From assembly GCA_026874595.1 (NCBI GenBank), contig CM049312.1, positions 74,930,429 to 74,994,428 of the forward strand: a DNA stretch of 64,000 nt, in the 5' to 3' direction. Positions 2,586 through 53,200 of the stretch are shown piece by piece. Made by a program: the position numbers and the translations under genes. The notes under the pieces were generated by a model, which did no database searches, was not told the DNA's origin, and saw nothing but the letters and a program-made list of their open reading frames with translations. Every line of letters begins with the position of its first letter. Position 1 is the first letter of the stretch. Source of the stretch: Sipunculus nudus (taxonomy: Eukaryota; Annelida; Sipuncula; Golfingiida; Sipunculidae).

Positions 2586-5500
2586 CTGCAATAAAACAAA
2601 TAATACAACCATTACTGTCTGTAGCCCTACCTAGTGTATAATTAAAAAGGCTGGTGCCATATAACTGTGCTTTAATGGATGCAGCAGGACTTAAGTGATT
2701 ATTGTTGGCTCTGACAATAAGTTGTGAGATTATTAATGATTTTTTTTACAAGCACCAGACAATGATTACTGGTGGCTCTGACAATAAGTTATGAGATATA
2801 TTATAATTTTTACGCTAGACATCATTTGCTTTTAAGTCCAACACATTTGCTATATCCTACCAAATCTAAGTAACCTCAGTAATTGGGCAAGTTTATAGCA
2901 ATTATGTATGCCAGAATGTACCTCATTTTAACAGAACAAGAATTCTGAAGGTCTACTACCTTATTCATATTACAAGTTTTGACTGAATTTGGACATAAGA
3001 AAGAAATTTTACAGATAACATTATTTCACCGTGTGATATAGCATGGATTAAATTTAACCAAATAGGAAAGGTTACACAATGCCCCTGTACACTGGTATAT
3101 ACTCACACTGGTTGAGTAAGTTACGGTCAACTGGGTCCTGTGCCTGCTGTGCCAAACTGTGCAAAAGGATCTGGGCACTCCGATAGTGTCGGAAACACTG
3201 AAATACAGAAACCAATGAACCTTAGTCTGGGCCTTGCGGATAATCTATAAAATGTCTGGGCATTTAAACTCAAACTGTAACTAGAATATGGGTAGTCGAC
3301 AAGCAGCTACGTGTATCCACTGAAATCAGAGTGGAATGGGTGAAGTGAGGCATGGATTGAGTGGCAAGGGAAAATACAGTGAGGTGTGTTGCATATTAGC
3401 ATGGATGTCTGCAGCCGAAGTATATATGTAGGTTGCACCACCTACCACAAATGCAGAAAGCTGTCACATAAATGTAGGTGGCGCCACCTGCCAAAAAAAT
3501 TCAGAAAGCACTCCAAGATGTATAAACATGCAAAATCTTTAGGCAGATAAGTCAAACCACTACAGAGATACGAGTGATTTTAGCCCATGGCAGACAAACA
3601 GACAGACACTGTAAAAAAAATGGTTGCAGGTGGCCCCTCCAGTTTTGTGTATGATAAAGACCTATGTGATATCTATACACATGCAAAATTTTGGCCTAAT
3701 CCGTCAAACGGTTCTCGAGATATGAGCTTGGATGTCTGCAGCTTAAACGTGAATGTAGGTGGCGCCACTTGTCATAAAATCCAGAAAGCTGTCCAGGATG
3801 TATAAACCTGCAAGATTTTAGGTAGTTATGTCAAACCGCTACACACATGAGTGATTTTAGCCCTCGGCAGACAAACAGACAGACACTGTGCAAAAATGGT
3901 TGCAGGTGGCCCCTCCAGTTTGGCGTATGATAAAGAGCTATGTGAGATTTATACATATGCAAAATTTTGGCCTTATCGGTCAAAAGGTTCCCAAGATATG
4001 AGCATGGATGTCTGCAGCATAAACTAGAATGTAGGTGGCGCCACCTGTCACAAAATCGAGAAAGCTATCCAGGATGTATAAACCTGCAAAATTTTAGGTG
4101 GATATGTCAAACCACTGTTGAGATATGAGTGATTTTATCCCACAGCAGACAAACAGACGGAAGCTGTGCAAAAATGGTTGCAGGTGGCGCGACCAGTTTT
4201 GTTTATGATGAAGAGCTATGTGAGATCTATACACATGCAAAATTTTGGCCCAATCGGTCAGACGGTTCCAGAGATATGAGCTTGGATGTCTGTAGCGTAA
4301 ACGTGAAAGTAGTTGGCGCCACCTGTCATAAAATCAAGAAAGCTATTCAGGATGTATATGCATGCCGAATTTCAGGTGGAAATTCCAACCATTGCAGAGA
4401 TATGAGTGATTTTATTCCAAGGCAGATGAACAGATGGACGCAGTTCAAAAATGGTTGCAGGTGGCGCCACCATTTTTAGTGTATGTTATAAAGCTATCCA
4501 AGGGCTACATTTGGGTAAAAAGTTTTAGCCTGATAGGTCAAACGGTTCCTAAGATATGTGGGTTTATGTGTGAAAAACAGACACACAAATGGACACAGAG
4601 CGCAGAGGAAAGGTCAGAGGTCAAAACAAAATCGGGGCACAGCAGTTCACATGTGACCCGAACATAATCCTGGGTTTCGTAAAATTCCACCCAGCGGTTA
4701 AGGAGGAGTTCTCCGGACACCTACACGGCGGCGTCCGACTGAAAACATAGTATCCACAAAACTTTGTTTTGGCAGAAACAATAAAACAATGTCTGATGAT
4801 GTGGTAGAATTCAGGCCTTACAGATCACATAAATATTCTGCCTTGACGATCAGATTACAGTTGAAAATGAGAGAAACCTACTACTGGTGGAAGATTTCAA
4901 CATTTTATTTTGTTTTGGTGTCATGCATACTGTAAACGTAAAATTCCTGTTTACATTAACTTTAGATGTCAGACAAATTCTGACACTTATATTTAGATTA
5001 CATGCAATATCTTGTTCAGCTTTGTTGTATCTTTACCAAAATTTTCATAGTTCCCACAGAGGGAGTTTGCTTAAGATAATAGGTATCTTTAGAACTGAAA
5101 ATAAAAATGCCATATGTTTGAGCTACCCACATGAGTGGGTTATAGGTGCCACCTTAAAGTGCACTTTACTGAGCCTGCATGCAAACAGTTAAGGATTAAT
5201 ACTAAGGTCAGCCATTCTTGATTTCCCTAATTACTCAGAATATGCTTCATAAATATACAAATTTTTCTCCATAGATGGCAGTGTCTACACTAACACTATG
5301 AATACAACCAGATGACCACTGACATTTTAATGAACCTCATGATGTGTAAAAGAACAACGGGCAAACAGAAATCACAAAATATGAAAACTAAAACTTTCTG
5401 AAAAATATCTAGATTAACAAGATTCTCATGTTTTCTGGTTTCTTACCTGATTTGGATTTCCAAATATTTCATCCAATGCAGCTGTCTGGCACTGAAATGG

Positions 5501-8500
5501 AACAGAATTCATCTCTTTTATAGGGTGTAGGTATGGCAAATCAAACACAGGACTTAAAATACCTAGTTGTACACAGGTATTTCAAAAACTATAAGTGGGT
5601 GGATGAATAAAAAAAAATTACAAGTTAGAAGGCAGAGTCTACTGAACATGCTTGAAGAAAACAATATAATAATGTAAATAAAGAAATGGTGATGCTCAAA
5701 CTCTATGATCTTCACAAAAACACCTAAGCACATCTCTAAATGAATGTTAAAACACTACAAATAATAAATCTGGTATGAACTGAGGATTACAAAATCTCAG
5801 GATTTTTTATAAAAGGAACACAATTTATCAAAGTGAAATATAATAATAAAGCATTTGGAGCTGAAGGTATGTAAATGAAATTTCCGGTAAAACTCTAAGA
5901 GACTGTAATGTGTTGGCTATGGTATCTTGTTTAAGCAAATTCCTTCATAGCAAATATGAAGATGCTGAGAAGGCTTAATTATGAAATACTTCTCATTGTC
6001 ATTATTTTTTTTACATCCTAGCCCAACAGTTAATGAAGCAACAGTCCATGGCCTCACCCACCAGCGACGTCACACTCCTGCACTTTATTATTTTCAAGAC
6101 AATTACCATTTCAAGGGCGTGTGCATAGATGAGTCTGTCAGCGGTGACAGACGTGACTTGGGCACTGGACCTGAGGGCATCGTAAGCTCCCTGCTTGTGG
6201 AACTGTTTACAGACGCTCAGACATTTGTGGTATGAGATCTTCATTGCCATCAATACTGGAACAATAATCATTTATAAGTTATCATCTTAAATATCTTAAT
6301 GTTTTACAATCTTTAACATCTTGAAGTATTAATATACAAAACAATATCAAATTACATTACAAAACACAGGATTTTTCTCCTATATGTATATTGATATAAA
6401 AACAGAAAAATTTATAACACTTAATTCTGCTTTCATTCAAAATTCTCTTTTACATCATACCTAGAGTCAAGCCAACATTCCATATACATTGAATGCAGAT
6501 CAGGCATGCAGAATGAAAATAAAATACATAGATAAAGTGGAATTCCATATGTGCACATCTGGCATGTAAAATGAGTATCCAGCAAAACAAAACCTTACAT
6601 GTAGAAATTTCTCTGGTCTGTATGGTATACCAGACATGACATATACCAGCAGGTCCAGTACACATGAATTCTCTCAACACACATCCAGCATTCTGTGTGT
6701 ATGGAATCTTAAGTTCTATATGCCTACCTGCTTTGACAGAGCTGGAGGGCTGAAGACGACCCCCTTTAATCTCCTCTCTGCCCAACTGGAAAGACGATGA
6801 CAGGAGCTGTAGTGCCCGCATGTATAACACCACCTGCTCCAGGACCCTGAAAAACACAAGTAAAGCTACTAGACCATAAGAGACTACAGACCATCCAACT
6901 ACTGCCATCTGGGTAGTGAAGAGTAAACTAAAATTTAATAATTTTTCTCTGTAAATTCTGGAGCATGAATTCTGGATCTCCGCATACATTTTACAAAAAA
7001 GGCATTTGAATAGTTTGCTTTAAAATTTTTGAGATGACATGTGCTGTAGTTTTTTTTTGTGTACAGATTTAATTTGATAAACAAACATACATACATACAT
7101 TCATAAATTCACACAAACACAATTGTAACTAGACATTTCTTGACACCACAGGTGCCAGAGTATCCCCAGACATAGTATTCCCCCCCCCCCTTTAAGAATA
7201 GGCCCCATTTTTGCAGCATATACTGACACTTTGCAAGCAATTATTGTTTCATCCATTTATCAATCCACAATCTTTTGAAGATGTTGGTCCTGTGACTTTG
7301 ACCTTTGACCTCATGACCCCAAAATCAATTGGGGTCTTGCTTTTTCAATGGGACATATATAAGTCAAGTTTGAAATCTATACATCAACAAAAGCAGGAAT
7401 TATCATCCAGAAACTAATTTTTTGACAGATGGCTCCTGTGGCCTTGACATTGACCTTGTTACCCCAAAACTGATATTGATCATCCACTTATATATATAAA
7501 TCAATAGAGGTCTAAATTTATTGATGGACCATATATAAGTCAGGTTTGAAATCCATATATTAATCCAAGCTTGAATTATCATCTCGGGAACTAATTTTTG
7601 GACAGATGGCTCCTGTGACCTTCACCTTTGCCCTTGTGACCTCACAATTGACAGGCATCTTCCTCTATTGGCAGGGGAACTGTATGTGCAAGATGAAATG
7701 TCTGAGATGAAATGTTTGGCTGAAAATGCATCCACAATCTTTTGAAGATGTTGGTCCTGTGACTTTGACCTTTGACCTCATGACCCCAAAATCAATTGGG
7801 GTCTTGCTTTTTCAATGGGACATATATAAGTCAAGTTTGAAATCAATAAAAGCAAGAGTTATCATCCAGAAACTAATTTTTTGACAGATAGCTCCTGTGG
7901 CCTTGACCTTTGACCTTGTAACCCCAAAATTGATATGGATCATCCACTATTGGCAAGTTAGCTATATATTCAAGATGGAAGACCTGGAATGAAAGTTTGG
8001 CTTAAAATGCATCCACAGTATCTTTTAAGATGCGAGTCCAGTGACCTTGACCTTTGACCTCATAACCCAAGAACCTATAGGATTCTTACTTTAGTGGTGG
8101 GCCATACATAAGTCACGTTTGAAATCCATATGGCTATCAACACTGGAGATATCATAAGAGGTGTGTGATTTTCACCAAATATATACACATTAAAGGTCAA
8201 GGCCACTCTCATGGTAAAGGTCATGACCCAAATGTAAAAAGACCTCATCCCATAACCCATCTCTCTACATGTGCATAATATGAAAGAAATCTGTCCATTA
8301 GTTTTTGACTTATAATGCTTACAGTACTGTCAAGTGGCAATTATGGGGTATTAAAAGGCGTAAAAACAAGAAAAGGATAATAGGTGGCGCCACCAGTTTC
8401 CAGTATATCACAGGGCTATCCAAGATCTTCAGTCACCTTAATTTTTGGACCAGTCCATGCGAGCTTACTTGAGATATTTATTAATTTGTGTTATTTTCAG

Positions 8501-11500
8501 CAAAAATGGACCTATTCAAGGTCAAGGTCACTCTCCTAGCATAGGTCATGACCCCATTTAAATAGGCTTCGTCCCCTTACCTATATCTATACAAATGTAA
8601 AGTTTAAAAAAGATCAGTGAAATATTTTTTGAGTTATCCCGCTCACAAGGTTTTTCTGCAGCGGCAGCGGCTGCGGCGGGACCGTTGTGAAACCATAGTA
8701 TCCCGACTTTGTCTGGGGATACAATAACATTACCAACTAAGGTATGGATAATGCCACTTGGCCAAAATATTTACAGAAAATATGCAACAATAAACTCAAT
8801 GGAAAACAGGCCAACAAAGTTTACAGGAGACGAAATGTCTCCAAACTGAACTGGAAAATTTATTCATTGTAGAACATGATTATTTCAAAAATATTAATTT
8901 ATTCGCACTTGCTCATCTTTATTAAATATGCTTTAAAAGCATATACCTTCTGTCAAAAATGACCATACCTGAGAATGTACTCTATTTTATATATGTTGCC
9001 CATACCTGAATTCTGTGTGAAATTTTAAGACTGTTCAAAACAGCCCGCATGCATGGATATTCACAAGGCCTTTGACTGTGTACTTGTGACTGGTGAACAT
9101 ACCTTTGTTCCTCACTAATAAATGTGACTCTGTCCAGTGTGAACACTTCTCCGTGTCGCTGGGTATAGGATTCTGATATTGGTGAACTTCGTGACTTGGC
9201 AAGGTCTATTATACAGTCTACCAAAGCCTGAACAAAATTCAACTTGGCCAGGGTTTCGTTGTGTTCTTTCTGTTAATATGAACCAAAAAAAAATTGTATA
9301 AGGGGTGTTATCTTTCAGTCATTCTGAACAATAAATGTCTGTGTACTTGCACTTGCAAAGTTCCGTTGTTTGCAAAAAAAAGCTTGGCATTATTTAAAAT
9401 TAGTGGATTTGCTTTTTGTCTTTTCACCTCCATATAAAAAAACACCAGTTCATTTGAAAGACAATGCACTGAACTTTAACACAGATGTATTGGAAACAAT
9501 ATGGTTTTTTTTAATATAAACTGTTTGTTTTGCATCATCTGACCACATTTTCCAGTGCAAACAGTAGTGACATACCCAAATTTTTTATTAATGTTTATTT
9601 ACATAATTTTTCAGTGAGGCTTAAAAAGTATCAATGTATAAAATTATATCAAGACTTATAAATTTTAAGTGTAATCGAATATAAAACATTATCAGAATAT
9701 GATGTTATCCGCATTTTCTCACCTCCATCAAGATCTCCTCCTCCAGCTCGGGAGCAACGAATGATATGGGTCCCTCCATGTTGGGCGGAGACTGGCCAAG
9801 GTACGACTGTGCTTCCTGTGCTTGCCTTTTGTTGTAAAACGGAAACTTCTCCGTTGCGTTCTCCTTGATCGGAGATGAGAGTGGCGAATCTTGCCGAGGT
9901 GAACTACTGAACGGTAGCATGGCTTGTCTACTGAACGTGTTGTGTTGACCTGTGGTAAACAAAAAGGTATATACTGACTATAGGATAAGAAGCCTGCTTA
10001 ATTTTCAGAAAATTTATAGGCAAAGGTAAGGTGATCAAAAATGAATAATGTTATTGATTTCTGTACAGAATGGAAATTCTGATGATTCCCAAGTCATGAC
10101 AAAAGGTGAATGAAAAATATATCTGAAAATTTTCTGCAAGGGTAAGAAGATATTACCTGAAGATATGATATCAATTTTTGACAAAGCCATTGGTAAACAC
10201 ATCAGACCTCTTGCATCATTTGATATATCAATAAATGATGCTCACCCTATGGAATGAGGCTATCAATCATAGGATATTCTGCTTTTTAAATTAGTTTAAT
10301 TTACAATATGGTATTTATCTTTGTAATCAATATAATCCAGAAAAGAGGAGATTTTTACCAAGAGGCTGAAGTTTTATGTCAAAATGATTAAGCAGTCTGT
10401 TTATAAATTAAAACTGACTTTTTCTACTAACATAGAGCTAGAAAATATTATTACTCTAACAGTCACTAACAGTATCAAAATAGAATCACATTGAAAGAAC
10501 TGATTTGTATTGTTTTCAATCAATTTAAGCAGTATCTCTGAAAGCAAATACATAATCTTTTATGGTTAATCAATATCATAATTTGGTGTTCATCTGACAC
10601 TATTCCCCTGATAAACCACAGTAAAAACTTATAACTGGGAAGAAACAGTTATGGTTCCATCTGTGTCTTCATGTGTCTGTAACATTATATCTGCCCCTGA
10701 CACAGACATACCATGTTGCGCAGCAATGGTAGAAGGAGAAGCGAAAGCAGCGCGTAACCAGTGTTCTGATAACCCCGGGCTTCCCCCCGCTGCTCGTAAC
10801 AATGATTCTGGCAGTGTGGTGCTCCGGTCCCGAGCTGACAGCGGGGCTGACAAAGGTATCACATTCCTGTCTGTAAAGCAGATATAAAAGCAAGGCTTAA
10901 AGCGTGCTGGTTCTCTTGTGGCAGCAATTAATTTAATCAATATTACACCGATGGCCAAGAATTACTATAGCTTGTTCCTCTAAGTGGGTCTGCTGAAAAT
11001 TGCTGGTAATAAACTTTTAAATCTTTTATCTTCCTTCATGAAGTCACTTTATTCAATCACTTTATGCACATAATAAATGGCTCTGACTAATATACTTGAT
11101 TTAACAAACTGCGAAAAATATTTGTTTTGGATCAGATACTGAATTATTTACTATTTGCATGGTTTTCTTTCTGTTTAAGCAGGCCTGTGTCCCATTCTTT
11201 TTCTGACACTTCCTAAACAATAGAAAATATACTGTCAAATTCAGCAGACATGGCTTGGTAGAACAGACAATAGTGGCAGTAATATTTTCAAAGGTTTCCT
11301 TTATCTGACTTATGAAATAAATTTGAGGCAGAAAAATGTACAGCTTGCAAATATTAAAGCATGTATTTGTCAATCAATCAAATCAATCATACAATTTTCG
11401 TAATTAAATTATACAAAATATTCTATTACACAGTATAATGGCAGAACTGACTGTTCAAGTCAAATTATCAGGTTCTATTTGGTTTCATCATAAAAACTTT

Positions 11501-14500: not shown

Positions 14501-17459
14501 GTTTCACATCTGTGATATCTTGAAAGCAAAATTGTAAAAATAAAGCCTCATTTATACAGGTGAATAGTTGAGGGGCAAAACACTTGGCTGTCTCTGCTGG
14601 GGACCCCGGTTCGATCCCCAGTGATGCATTGAGAATTTGTTGTAATTGTCCAACGCCAGTGGTTTTCTCGGGGTTCTCTGTTTTCTCAACCCCCACAAAC
14701 TACCAAATGGAGCCATGGAGAGTGCCTTGCTTGTTTAATAACTATTTGCATCAACACTTAAAACACAGATGATTGATATCATAAATAATATCACATATTT
14801 TATTTTACATATAAACCAAAGATCCATGCTTTATGCATCAACACTTAAAACACAGATGATTGATATCATAAATAATATCACATATTTTATTTTACATATA
14901 AATCAAAGATCAATTACTTAAAATAAAATAAAATTGGTTCTTTTATATTATCTTTTATATATTCTTTTAGATCCATGCCAAATGTTAAGATTTTGTGTGT
15001 ACATTAAATAATTGATACAATTATCAATATACTGTGTTTAGGTCACTGTACTGAAAGAAAGTTTGCTGGGTTTCGCCACTAGACGGCAGGCACAGAGCAA
15101 ACTAGATGTGTCGGTACGACACGAATGCCCCCGCCTGGGGCAAATTAGAAACATTTGTTAAATTTTGTAAAATTTTTTTAAGTTCAGGAGGTGTTGTATG
15201 GTCAAAAGTAGGTCAAGAAGGGCAAAATGCAAACTCGATCTGTAACGGGTCATTATCAAGGAACACACCAAAAATCAAGCCAGTATGCAGGCACTGTGAA
15301 AAAAAGTCCATACATGTGCATTTTTCATAAAAAATTCTCTTTTATGAAATTTTCTATGTTCAGGATCTGTCATATGGTCAAAAATAGGTTAACTGGGATG
15401 AAACGCGAACTTGACCTTTAAGTGGTCATTATGCGCCTACAGACCAAACATTGGGCCAGAATCTGTAAGCATTGTATTGCGAAACTAGAATATTAGCAAA
15501 AGCTGGTAATCAGTTATAAATTTAAATTGGAGAGGTATGTAAGATGTTTTATAACAATCCACCAAATGCTTCCTGAGAAATATCCCCCTAAGTTTTTTTT
15601 CTATACTAAGCTCTGTGACCTTGAAAAGTAGGTCAAGACCACCCATCTTTGAACCTGACCAAGATTTTGTAAATATGATGCAAAAGCACTGAAGTAATGA
15701 AGTTCTTCAGTTGAATACCTTTGGAGATATCCTGCACAAAGGCCAAAATTGAAAAATCCGATAAAGTTTCATTAAAAAATCAGAAATTGCAGGTGATGCC
15801 ACCAAAACTGTGCAGAACGTACAGACCATCAGTCGCAATGATCATAGTAAGTTTTATGAAAATCCACACAATGGTTCCTGAGATATAAGCTTCTGACGGT
15901 TTTTCTATAATCAGCTCTAAAATGTAGAAAAATGGGTCAAGGTCACCCATCTTCGAACTTGACTGAGATTTTATCGATATTTATCTTCACTGATGAAATA
16001 AAATTCCAACGGTGAATCCTTTTAGAGATATCCCGCTCACAAGGTAAAAGTTAACAGATGCGGAACGGACAGACGGACGGACAGACATCGACAGACAGAT
16101 GGACGGATAGACGGACAGCTTGTGTGACGACAATAGCCCATCAGCCTATGAGCTGAGGGCTAAAAAGGGCTGTACATGTACATTTGTCATAAAAATTAAT
16201 TTTCATGAAATTTTCTATTTTTAGGAGCCGTAAAACAATCAAAAGTAGGTCAACCGGGACGAAACGCGAACTCGATCTGTAACTGGTCATTATCTGCCCA
16301 CACACCAAAAATCAGGCCAATATCTGCAGGCATTGCGAAAAAAAGTCCGTACATGTGTATTTGTCATGAAAATTTCTATTTTTCATGAAATTTTCTAAGT
16401 TTAGGAGCCGTAAAACAGTCAAAAGTAGGTCAACCGGGATGAAACGCGAACTCGATCTGTAACTGGTCATTATCTGCCCACACACCAAAAATCAGGCCAA
16501 TATCTGCAGGCATTGCGAAAAAAAGTCCGTACAACTGTTTTATTTCGGAAGGAAGGAAGGACGGAAGGACGGAATGACGGACATGGGTAAAACTATATGC
16601 CCCGGCCACTTTGTGGCGGGGGCATAATAAAAATGTACAGACCAAAGAGAGCAGGGTATCACAGGTTTAAAATACGGAACTCCGCTCTCACTAGAGATTC
16701 ACTGAAAATTCTTGGCACTTTGCCAGTTGGTGAAACCCAGCAAACCATGCTACAGCAAGCCCTAGTCAAGTGAAACAAGTTTTTTTCAGCATAGAAAACC
16801 ACAGTGATGAGGAGTGTAGTATTAACCTACCCGTGGTGAGTGTGGTGACAGTGACGCAGGCTGTAGGACAATGTCTTTCTGATGTACCGGGCTGACAGGT
16901 GACAGGCGAGGCTGGACCCTTGTCACCTGTCCCGGGACAGGTATTGGGGCTGAGGGTGACCCAGGGCTTTGTACCGGTAGAGAACTTGGTCGACTCGGGC
17001 TATCCAGCTGGGGTAAATCCGGTTTAGTCTCAGTTTGTCTTGTCGTAGACGGACTCGGGGAGTCTGGTGTGGAGGTATCACTGAAATCAAGATAAACATG
17101 AAACATCTGCAAATATCATACTATTAAGTGTGAGTATTGTCAAAACACATATACTCACATCAATAAGACATCACCTGTTCACACCCTCTGGAGACGTAAC
17201 AATATACTCTTGGTGGCTTTTTATTTATCATGTACGTTATCCACGCTGTAAGCATGAAAACTTAAAACACATCAGTAAGATTTCACATGTTCTATAGTAC
17301 TTACATACATTAATATATCACATCCTCAGATTCTTCCTAAAACTTGTCATTCTAAGCAATTGCTCTGAAAACCATAAATATCATGGGCATACCCATCTTA
17401 ATTTATAGCATACCAGTACTGGTGAGCTGATAATCCACAGTTTGCTGGTGTTTCTGTTA

Positions 17460-23400: not shown

Positions 23401-26156
23401 AAATCAATGATTGGTCGTTTCCTTTCAAAATTGATTAAAATCAATTGCACTTTAGCCTAATCAATTAAAAATGATTATGTATTCCCAGGCAAAGAATCTA
23501 ATCCTGTCAGAGATATACAAAACACAAAGTGACAAATAGTATCAAAACAGAACCATTCCCAGCCAACAATCGACCAATGGCAAGTCGACCTTGGATGCGG
23601 GTTGACTGATGGTTTCATTATGAATACCGATGATGATGTACATGTCACTTTTTACTGGGGTCAATATTTTAGGTGTACACATGTTCTAGTATACAGCAGA
23701 TTTCAAGGTAATATAGAAAGTACTTAAAATAACCGATTAATAATCGATCCGGGCATTTTTATTTTTCAATCATCGATTATGATCTTACAACTGATTCCTA
23801 CCAATAATGAATACTCTAATGAAAGTATACTGAATCAGCTTTAATGAAACGTTAGATAAGAACAGATATGTCAAAGATTTCTAAATTTTTATTGCTTTAA
23901 GGAAACCAATAAGATGTGTAGGTAATTTCTTACTTAGGTGATAGGTTGGCATTTTTTTCATAGAACTGTTTGAGTTGCTGGGGAGTCTGTGCTTGGAACG
24001 GAGCCTTCCCAGTGAGACACTGGTAGACGATGGTTCCTATGCTCCACAGGTCTGCCTTAGCATCGTACTGTATTGACATAATGACCTCTGGTGCCTGGGA
24101 ACAAAATATATACAATACAGTAAAACTTGCACTCAATAAGACCTCTGTCACACAGACACTTCCTTTATCTGCATTATTCAGACCTCAAGGGTATCAGTTT
24201 GAGATTCATTTATTGACAGTAACCCTGCCAGTATGGGAAAATCTCTGGGTTTTTTGCGTATTCTTTTCCTCATGTTACTGATTACAATTTGATCATGCCA
24301 CTGCTTACAGTAACGCACTGGAAATTACACAAGACATCTTAAATGGAATATATCATCGTTCACAAATACATAGTTGGAAACAACTAGGAAGCTGTATACA
24401 TTAGAGTATGGACTTTAGGTTAACTGCTACACAGTTACTTTTTATAATGCAGCTTCAATCAGGTCTTATCAATCTGATGCAATTTCAGCTCAAAATTTAC
24501 ATTTTTTTAACTTACCCTGGTACATAGCTTGATAGTGATTAAAAGATTTTTTAACACACATAAAAACTCAGCAGTACTTGCACACATATTTTCCTAGCTA
24601 GACACTTACCATGTACATTGGTGACCCACATAATGTGGCAGCCATTACTCCATCTTGAAGGAAGCGGGCAAAGCCAAAATCAGCTGGAAATGTACAAAAA
24701 GATATAATTATTTGTCTGTAAAAGGCAGCTGATAAAATTGAACTGTTTGTCAATGAACATCAGACTAAAGTTTTATCTGATAAGTTTAAAAACCATGAAT
24801 AACAATTTTTTTCTGATCTTATCCTCCAAATTCTAAAAAGAAAAACAGGTTTAAAACTTATATTCATCACACTTACAAGAGAGTAATTTATAAGGATGGT
24901 TTCTGTGTTATTAAATCAATCACATTTGGACATTACAACACTATACACTCATGTTCCATGTATCTTTGCATGTAGCGTTTCAGCGTTACATATATATGAT
25001 AAACTTGCAGATCCTAAATATACTGATCTACAAGTAGTCAATATTGATCAAGGTGCTGTAGATGGTAATCAATCCCTAGAGCTGGTTATCAGACATAAGC
25101 CAGACCATTCAATTCTCTTAAAATGTCAGCCACCTGTCAATCAAATCCAACAATCTTATCAATGTTGTAACTGTGTGGATAGGTTCTGTGTGTTTGGCTG
25201 GTTATTTACATATTTTGAGAAGTATTTCTGTGTGTTTGGCTGTGTATTCACCTATTTTGAGACTTATTTCTGTGTGTTTGGCTGGGAATTTACCTATTTT
25301 GAGACGTATTTCTGTAGGTGGGGGGTTGGTTTTGCCCTGGTGATGTAACAGGATGTTTTGTGGTTTAAGATCTCGATGAACCACCCCTTTGGCATTCAAG
25401 GCCTTCATAGCACCAGCTAAAATGATAAAAATAACATAAACATTCTACTTCACAAACTGCTTTCATGTAGAGTTAAATGACATGTGGGGGATTATTTACA
25501 TATTACAGCAAGAAAGTTAAACAATACTGTCTTACAATCAAATTCAATTCATCTGAAATTTTTTGTTTTTTCTTTAAATGGGACTTTGAATAACCAGATA
25601 CAGGGATTGTTCTATATATTTCAGTGAACCTTTTAGTGTTCTGGTGAAATTCCATTATACTCTATACAGTTCTCTGCTTTGACAGGTATGAACTTACAAC
25701 ACATCTGATGTTTTACATACACATGGATAAAGACAAGAACAAGGATACAACAAGCAAATGCATTTCTGAGGTCAAGCGATGTAACAATACAGTATCTTAT
25801 GAAAAGACCCTGATGTTATTATAAAAAGGGAAACTATCTTGCGAGATGTACTTATAGCATGTATTTACACCACAAAATAAAATACCCATTTCCATATGTA
25901 TATCCATATGAGCACCACAGTTATAAAATCAGGCACACAACTTCAGCTGTACACATATCCATACCTATTCCTATTGAAATATAGCTTTGAGCTTTGAGGT
26001 AATCTATTCAGGGTATGGGCCCCTTTTAAAAAGTATTTACAAAATTGGTACATACCAATTTGCCTGAGGAACAGGGCAATAGTGTCTTCACTCAGTGTCC
26101 CCTTGGCTGAAGGAAAACAATGAATAATAAATCACATAGTTCTGATAAACAAGTGG

Positions 26157-50200: not shown

Positions 50201-53200
50201 ATTTATAGACCCTTAATGTGAAGCAGGACACAAGGTAGAACTGCTGTGAGTGCATATAATTACTAGTGTGACACCCAACTGAATGTCTGCTAAGGTTATA
50301 TTCTTAATACTACCATTTGAATAGTTTCTTAATTATCTCTGCCATCAGACTGTTATATTATTTCACTCTTGTTTATCTCTGTCTTTTTTCAACGACACAA
50401 TATCCCAAAATATTTAACGATAAATTTCAGTTGAAATTGTGGAGCAGGGGACAGGGGAAAAGCAATTTTTGTGGATCTGGCTGCAGATTTGGCCAAATTC
50501 TTCCCTGTTTGGCTTTTACTTTTTGTCCACACAATATCTCCAAAAATTCTCAATGAACTTAACATTTATTTTGGTTGGGCCATTGTACAACAGATTAAAT
50601 ATTGGAGTGGATCATTTAAATTTTGGGGCTGACCTGGCCAGCCACTGACAGGGTCATTGGTAGAGGTATGTACATGATCTCTGTAAGACTTACCTTGCAG
50701 TCCAATAATGCAACCACATTTTCATGGTGAAGATCAGAGAGCTCCTACAAGAAAACAAACACAGGCTATCAGTATATTTAAGGCAATTTTGTATTGTCTC
50801 TACAATTTGTAAAGGTGATGGCTGCAATAAAATACTGTTTTATAAAAACTTTTATTTGATCATTATTATCAAAATTAATATTTAGTACCAGGCCTCGAAT
50901 TTCATTTTTGGAAATGACAAGCTACTGCTGCCTGTCAAATTAAAACTTGACAGGCAACAAAGAAATTTGACAGGCAGCTTTCATTTTTTCATTTGTTTGC
51001 ATTGTTTTATTTCGAGTAAAGTCTAAATAATAAAAAAACATATCCAAGTATGTTTTATTCATCATTCACAAACAAATAGTCACCTGGTGACCCCGAGTCA
51101 TCTTTGGCCAGTCCTCAAAACTATCGTGACGACGGTGGGTGAAATGGAGACACGGACGGGATTGGGAAATGGGAATTTTTTTACCAGGTCATAATTTAAT
51201 AACAGGCCTAATTTGGACGATGATAGACGTGATAATAGATATATTAATGGTGTTCCCAGTATTTATTTATATACTATATATGTTAAACACGATGTAAGGT
51301 TTTTACAACTGAACACAGCGTGGATACAATGTAGTTTTCCGCGAAACTGTATTACCAATATCCTTATACAGCGGACCAATCGGATCAATCGTAACACAAT
51401 GTAGATGTGTAGCCTACCCTGCAGTAACCGCTATGCTTAGCTATGATTGGCTGATAACAGCCGGTCATAAAAGATCATTTTTCTGATTGGCCGACTGGTA
51501 GCCATTTTTTATCTGAAATGTTCCCCGAGTAGATCCCAATTGTGGCTAGCTTAGTGCCACCGTGTGTCACTGCAAGAGACTATCGGCTCATTTGCTGGTT
51601 TCCCAGGCCAGTTTCCTCGTAAACGGGGAACCAGTAACACTAAGTTTTTTTTTAAATAAAAAATCATATAGAGTGGCTGCAATTGTGTACAGACAAGAAA
51701 GACGCAGTGAGGAGTTTTTTTGACCGGCAGCAAGCTGCCGGTCAGGATTGTGGCTGAAGGCAGTCAGCCAATTTTAACCAGCATTTGCAGGTTGCCGGTC
51801 GTCAAATTTGAGGCCCTAGTACTGCTACATACTTAGTAGGGGTGTGTATTGCCAGGCAGCTCCTGAGACAAACCGATTCACAATACAGGCTGGCAATACG
51901 CAAATTGGTTTGCGAACCTTTGCATATAAAATACATTGAAAATTTGAAAGGAATAAAAAATACCCCCCTGGATGTTGATTAATGTGTATATATACTATAT
52001 ACATAATATTTTGTTTTAAACTATAAATCGACAATATTCCTATATTTTTTAAACAAAAGCAAGGGTTTTACCAAAAATTGTGCATTATACTCCTGTCATG
52101 TATCTGGTGACCTCTGACCTCCTTAAATATGTGTGAATTATGCTACAAATGTAATTCAGGTGAGAAATTCTATTGGTAAATATTTATAATGAGTTTCATG
52201 GAAATCCATAAGACTTTTGGTTCGTTTCCATGGTGCCACCAAAGTCTGGGAACCTCTGGCCTCATTACATTTGTGTGGATTTTGCTTGAAAGTGAACTTA
52301 GGTGGGATATTACATTGATTAGTATATCAGTTGAGTTTTATTGAAATCCAAAGAATCCCTTGTAAGTTATCTTGGTGACACCACAAAGTAGCCTTATGAC
52401 CTCTGACCTTATTAAATATTTGTGGAATTTTATCCATAATCAAACTCAGGCAAGATAATGTATAGGTTAGTTGTAATGGTGAGTTTCGTGAAAATTCATC
52501 AAAGCCAAGGTAAGTTATTTTGACGACACTAAAAGTTAGACTGCCACAGGTATACCATCAATGGGCTTTTAAATTATAAGTTACACAAATTATATGAAAT
52601 GTTTACTGAAAATGAAAAGCATACATACGTACTTAACATACCACAATAATAAGAGCACAGAAGTGATTGCAAAAAATTAAAGTAGGAACAGCACATTACA
52701 TACCTTCAGGATTTTAATTTCTTTACTCAATAAATTCTGAGATTTTGCCAGGTTCTTCTTTGTAATACACTTGATTGCCACTGTAAGATCATGTTTCTGA
52801 AACAAAGAACAGAAATATGGTACATACATTTTCCATTATTATATTTCTCGCAAATAAATGAGCATGCACATGCACTTACTGGATCATACAATCCCTATAA
52901 CAAAGCCTACAGGCCTAATGCCAACCTGTGCTATGGGATATACATCAGGTACCATAAAAGTTGTTGCAGAAGTCCCGACTTGTACTAGGAAATCGCATTC
53001 TTAAAACAAGATTTTTTCTGGCAAAGTCAGGGTGTGACTTATAATACGTACTTATCCCGTCTCAGGCAGCTTTCCCAGTATATGGAACGACGTCAGTTGA
53101 GCAATAATATGCGATCTCTTTAACCAGTGCTTTGCACGTCTCTCCCCAATAATTACACCTTTAACCATTTCTAATGAAAACCTGCCTTATATTTTGTGAA

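Follow-up and report, generated by a model that had tools for sequence, protein, structure and literature searches.

A 42-bp tandem array across the exon 7-intron 7 border of a ULK1/2-type kinase gene

The host gene and its exons

The window, by which we mean the whole 64-kb stretch of DNA that was analysed, carries on its minus strand the exons of a ULK1/2-type kinase gene. Exons 1-9 are open and in phase when joined, and the resulting spliced model of 237 residues matches PDB ULK1 with an E value of 1.1e-113 and ULK2 with an E value of 1.6e-108; the final portion of the kinase domain falls in further exons. The catalytic motifs are intact in the exon 1-9 model, and APE is present. Judged by its closest similarity and intact catalytic motifs, the gene is a ULK1/2-type kinase gene, and from the gene itself it is presumably that of an animal. 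ULK1/2 is an autophagy-initiating kinase. Exon 7, which bears the same number in our exon model as in the preliminary description of this DNA, encodes 41 residues together with the codon split by the preceding intron. The coordinates of exons 7 and 8, and of the features found at the border between exon 7 and intron 7, are collected in Table 1.

Table 1. Features at and around the exon 7-intron 7 border, in positions of the window.
Feature	Positions	Strand	Remarks
Exon 7	25294-25416	-	123 nt, phase 1 at both ends; exon model and gap-free ULK1 alignment across the exon 7-8 join
Exon 8	24610-24683	-	starts with ADFG codons; acceptor TTGTACATTTCCAG
Authentic donor TAG|GTAAAT	25288-25293	-	first intron base 25293; homology; U1 -6.7 kcal/mol, 4th of 36 GT
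Duplicate donor 2 TAG|GTGAAT	25246-25251	-	in phase; +14 residues; U1 -6.8 kcal/mol, 3rd of 36 GT
Duplicate donor 3 TAT|GTAAAT	25204-25209	-	T at -1; +28 residues; U1 -1.6 kcal/mol, 19th of 36 GT
Repeat unit 1	25268-25309	-	exonic part 16 nt (end of exon 7); intronic part 26 nt, with authentic donor
Repeat unit 2	25226-25267	-	38/42 identical to unit 1
Repeat unit 3	25184-25225	-	38/42 identical to unit 1
Partial fourth copy ACAGAA	25310-25315	-	exon-side end of array
In-frame TAA	25202-25204	-	ends frame after donor 3 on intron retention (...LLKICK*); position counted from translation

Several further parts of the gene were noted along the same strand. Exon 3 (50694-50744) has a 3-residue insertion near its start relative to PDB ULK1 (EL---KHENIV). 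A candidate kinase exon 10 lies at about 22.4-22.5 kb on the minus strand, with approximate borders, and a further candidate kinase exon lies near 21.9 kb (DLFFKHPF). ULK1/2 proteins have a C-terminal MIT-type (EAT) region, and the minus-strand ORF pieces at 8982-9272, 9705-9977 and about 6.1 kb presumably resemble the C-terminal part of ULK proteins. A Pfam search of these three ORF pieces (6-10 kb) for the C-terminal ULK region gave no match above the cut-offs; the one hit listed, PF03538, reached 17.5 bits where 22 were required and was taken as chance. Searches of the window found no RNA families at the gathering threshold and no tRNAs.

A tandem array across the exon 7 donor

TRF analysis revealed an array at 25184-25315 with a period of 42, 3.1 copies and 88% matches without indels, consisting of three full 42-bp units (25184-25309) and a 6-bp partial copy. 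Alignment of the units gave identities of 38/42 for units 1 and 2, 38/42 for units 1 and 3, and 36/42 for units 2 and 3. The best self-match over 84 columns within 24184-26150 was 74, a value reached in none of 300 dinucleotide shuffles (maximum 46). TRF, the unit alignment and the shuffles thus bear out the three 42-bp units described earlier, with starts at 25184, 25226 and 25268; the start of the array at 25184 also stands, while its end, previously placed at 25325, lies at 25315. The array is a minisatellite across an exon-intron border, and it overlaps the donor of exon 7, the sole one of the 17 kinase-exon splice sites that falls inside an array with a period of at least 40.

Short tandem repeats are prone to misassembly, and an assembly or sequencing artefact would account for the copies. 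Compared in pairs, the units differ at 4, 4 and 6 of their 42 positions, which is unexpected for a false copy of one unit, and we consider such an artefact very improbable.

Because several other arrays are present in the TRF output, tandem duplication can be called common in the window. These lie at 14747-14911 (period 87, 98% matches), 16172-16533 (period 180, 94%), 3471-4497 (period 278, 84%) and 7576-8130 (period 282, 79%). Placed at random, the array described here would cover one of the 17 kinase-exon splice sites with a probability of 0.028; when all five merged arrays with a period of at least 40 are taken together, the probability that one or more of them does so is 0.30. The presence of other arrays and the chance of such an overlap (0.30, or 0.028 for this array by itself) fit a reading in which the copies are inert intronic debris, with 25293 alone used and the extra GTs never chosen.

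Three donors and their predicted products

The GTs starting at 25293, 25251 and 25209 were confirmed in the unit sequences at the positions claimed for them, and translation confirmed that the copy at 25251 keeps the phase of the donor at 25293. With 25293 spliced to exon 8, the predicted protein can be aligned to PDB ULK1 along 66 residues free of gaps, with a score of 88.1 bits. Splicing from 25251 adds 14 residues and lowers the best score to 70.1 bits (for a query of 79 residues, compared with 66 for 25293), and splicing from 25209 adds 28 residues, with a best score of 67.3 bits and an alignment that splits into two stretches. Since its product is gap-free against ULK1 and the longer products score lower, 25293 is, judged by this homology, the ancestral donor.

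Donor strength was scored as a simple duplex energy with the U1 5' end for the 36 GTs of exon 7 and intron 7. Two other GTs in intron 7, at 25133 and 24876, pair slightly better with U1 than the donors of the array (both -7.3), and a good U1 score therefore does not prove that a donor is used. Matches to the 9-base donor consensus number 7 at 25293, 6 at 25251 and 6 at 25209, so that donors 2 and 3 tie on this measure. Across seven further donors of the gene (that of exon 4 left unscored) the values ranged from -4.5 to -11.0, which puts the exon 7 donor on the weaker side and would ease competition. In the predicted RNA folds, donor 2 was the least accessible of the three in four of five, and intermediate, above donor 1, in the remaining one; this low predicted accessibility speaks mildly against its use. 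The preliminary description had treated both extra donors as competitors of the authentic one. By U1 pairing, 25251 is indeed a credible candidate competitor, but 25209, with its poor pairing and the T at -1, is weak and finds no support as an equal donor.

Substantial use of both 25293 and 25251 would yield two ULK isoforms differing by 14 residues before the DFG strand. Consistent with such competition, the two donors pair almost equally with U1 and share the exonic context TCAAAATAG, the exon 7 donor is weak for its gene (-6.7, against -4.5 to -11.0 for the seven others), and the 25251 product is in phase and open and leaves TEISLKI-ADFG joined. Against it, the exon-like stretches of the copies bear no mark of constraint on the protein, and a study of shifts of 3, 6 and 9 nt in human genes reports selection against tandem in-frame sites where the protein is ordered (PMC2279118). 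Competition on this scale is possible, and we put it forward tentatively.

Translation of the alternative products modified several details given previously. The insertion predicted from 25251 is 14 residues long, as reported, with the 14-mer itself rotated by one residue relative to the earlier version; the insertion from 25209 likewise has the reported length of 28 residues, but the change of the last exonic G to T turns ADFG into SDFG. The units, said to stay open, do so through the third donor, and the frame closes within a few codons of it (ICK*). The strand that precedes DFG (TEIxLKI) is likewise copied in every unit, and the 25251 product would keep TEISLKI joined to ADFG. HMMER alignment of this product placed a gap over the 14 residues and set the second TEISLKI on ULK1 residues NSIRVKI. 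Posterior values around the gap are low (about 4-6), making the placement of the insertion uncertain, and the ADFG part is firmly aligned. Because the unit copies the strand, the extra 14 residues would in effect lie upstream of the strand-DFG link, lengthening the loop before the DFG strand and not splitting the strand from DFG, with the exact placement uncertain. In terms of kinase strands, the lengthened loop would be the one that joins beta 7 to beta 8, with beta 8 leading into DFG.

It had been proposed that the residues would be inserted before DFG and could alter kinase activity. This appears doubtful, as HMMER puts them upstream of the copied strand. Direct harm to DFG, the magnesium-binding motif, is likewise doubtful because the strand is copied and because CK1alpha with a 28-residue insert stays active, if changed in its behaviour (PMC11255964). 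By this analogy and the predicted product, the effect on the protein would probably be milder than first claimed, though stability could suffer.

Comparison of the units gave no indication of function. Of the 22 columns in the exon-like half, 3 vary, and of the 20 in the intron-like half, 4 do, a pattern as for neutral copies. The exon-like changes alter residues, with R to S in unit 2 and, in unit 3, R to L as well as a G-to-T change of the final base, and a comparison of exon-like with intron-like columns across the three units gave no hint of constraint on the protein. That the copies stay open was considered as evidence of selection and rejected: the exon-like substitutions are not protein-sparing, and in 20,000 simulations that preserved the exon half and took a length divisible by three, a single copy was open by chance with a probability of 0.61. 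The similar divergence of the two halves, the loss of the -1 G in unit 3 and the in-frame stop that follows it all favour inert copies. Duplicated donors are often usable, and this, with a donor 2 that equals donor 1 in U1 pairing, counts against copies that are never chosen. On balance, we regard sole use of 25293 as somewhat better than an even prospect.

Proposed origin and comparison with known systems

The array is best read, with a probability of roughly 0.8, as a boundary minisatellite in which 25293 is the main donor and 25251 a possible minor one. The readings considered here are not mutually exclusive, and their probabilities need not add up to one. The source of the unit would be a segment made up of the 16 bases that close exon 7, the 20 bases that open intron 7 and ACAGAA. 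This 42-bp segment was probably duplicated in tandem twice, perhaps by slippage or unequal exchange. ACAGAA occurs at both ends of the array (25310-25315 and 25184-25189), which suggests a possible slippage homology, an origin that rests on 6 bases. The units differ at about a tenth of the compared positions (14 of 126), and the array is presumed to be an old boundary minisatellite. Since the copies fall within the intron and leave the first donor intact, with an open frame and gap-free homology, splicing from 25293 would still give a normal kinase. The copies would have left two in-phase donors downstream, of which 25251 is about as good on paper as 25293 and 25209 is weakened. If 25251 serves as a minor alternative, its product would carry a longer loop before the DFG strand, and the case would illustrate how such a loop may be extended by a repeat while the link between strand and DFG stays intact.

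A stronger version of the boundary minisatellite reading would have 25251 used in a regulated way, giving a ULK isoform with a loop 14 residues longer and the strand swapped for its copy. The array would then provide a built-in means of adjusting an autophagy kinase, in which a change in unit number can change the set of isoforms. We think such regulated use unlikely.

Repeat-mediated gain of splice variation is already known, and the ULK array adds a case of boundary repeats. In human segmental-duplication genes, tandem repeats at exon-intron boundaries alter splicing, and the gene-modifying boundary repeats of human genes average a 30-bp unit and four copies, according to excerpts of PMC2812944. 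As there described, the human repeats resemble the ULK array in having units of minisatellite size that lie across an exon-intron border and are able to change splicing. They vary among recent human paralogues, have transcript support and reportedly act through the formation of novel introns; the ULK array, in contrast, concerns a single gene with diverged units and copied donors, and is described here from its DNA sequence. The array also resembles tandem in-frame donors in having nearby donors in the same phase (parts of PMC2279118 and PMC2423196). The shifts given in these sources are 3, 6 and 9 nt (PMC2279118) and the exon extensions three to six nt (PMC2423196), whereas the shift here is 42 nt and the donors lie within copied sequence.

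For the predicted proteins, the closest likeness is to the L-insert of CK1alpha, described in PMC7460588 and PMC11255964 as 28 residues that splicing adds to the kinase domain near the activation loop, with kinase activity retained. The +28 and +14 ULK products would similarly carry a splice-made insert within the kinase domain close to the activation loop. CK1alpha L forms gave only partial rescue of Wnt regulation, and zebrafish L forms were reported to be less heat-stable, in the sections of PMC11255964 drawn on here. The same two sources describe the L-insert as unique to vertebrate isoforms and as carrying a nuclear localisation signal, and it is not copied from neighbouring residues. Literature on ULK structure and splice variants describes no such donor among the matches listed, in their titles and the starts of their abstracts, which is not proof of absence. 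The ULK array offers a natural example of a duplicated donor in a conserved kinase region, with a unit that carries both the donor and the preceding strand, and as things stand it is a modest curiosity.

Introns can arise when AGGT segments are duplicated in tandem, as set out in parts of PMC3443670 and PMC2891723, and the duplicated segment here holds AG|GT in a similar manner. The repeat unit contains AATAG|GTAAAT, with the AGGT proto-splice motif of the tandem-duplication model outlined in those parts (PMC3443670, PMC2891723), and an early stage of intron gain would let a tiny intron of 24 or 42 nt leave, or would make an 18-nt microexon. The model starts from a duplicated exonic piece that gives rise to a new intron, whereas in the ULK array an existing donor has been copied into an existing intron. 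Introns produced in this way would measure only 24 or 42 nt; animal introns are usually longer. The AGs of the array have 4-7 pyrimidines in the 14 positions upstream, except for 10/14 at 25312, which lies inside the exon; the true acceptor has 11/14. Use of the array AGs as acceptors, for a microexon or a tiny intron, was rejected for these poor pyrimidine tracts and the 24- and 42-nt introns, and intron gain is the least probable of the readings considered.
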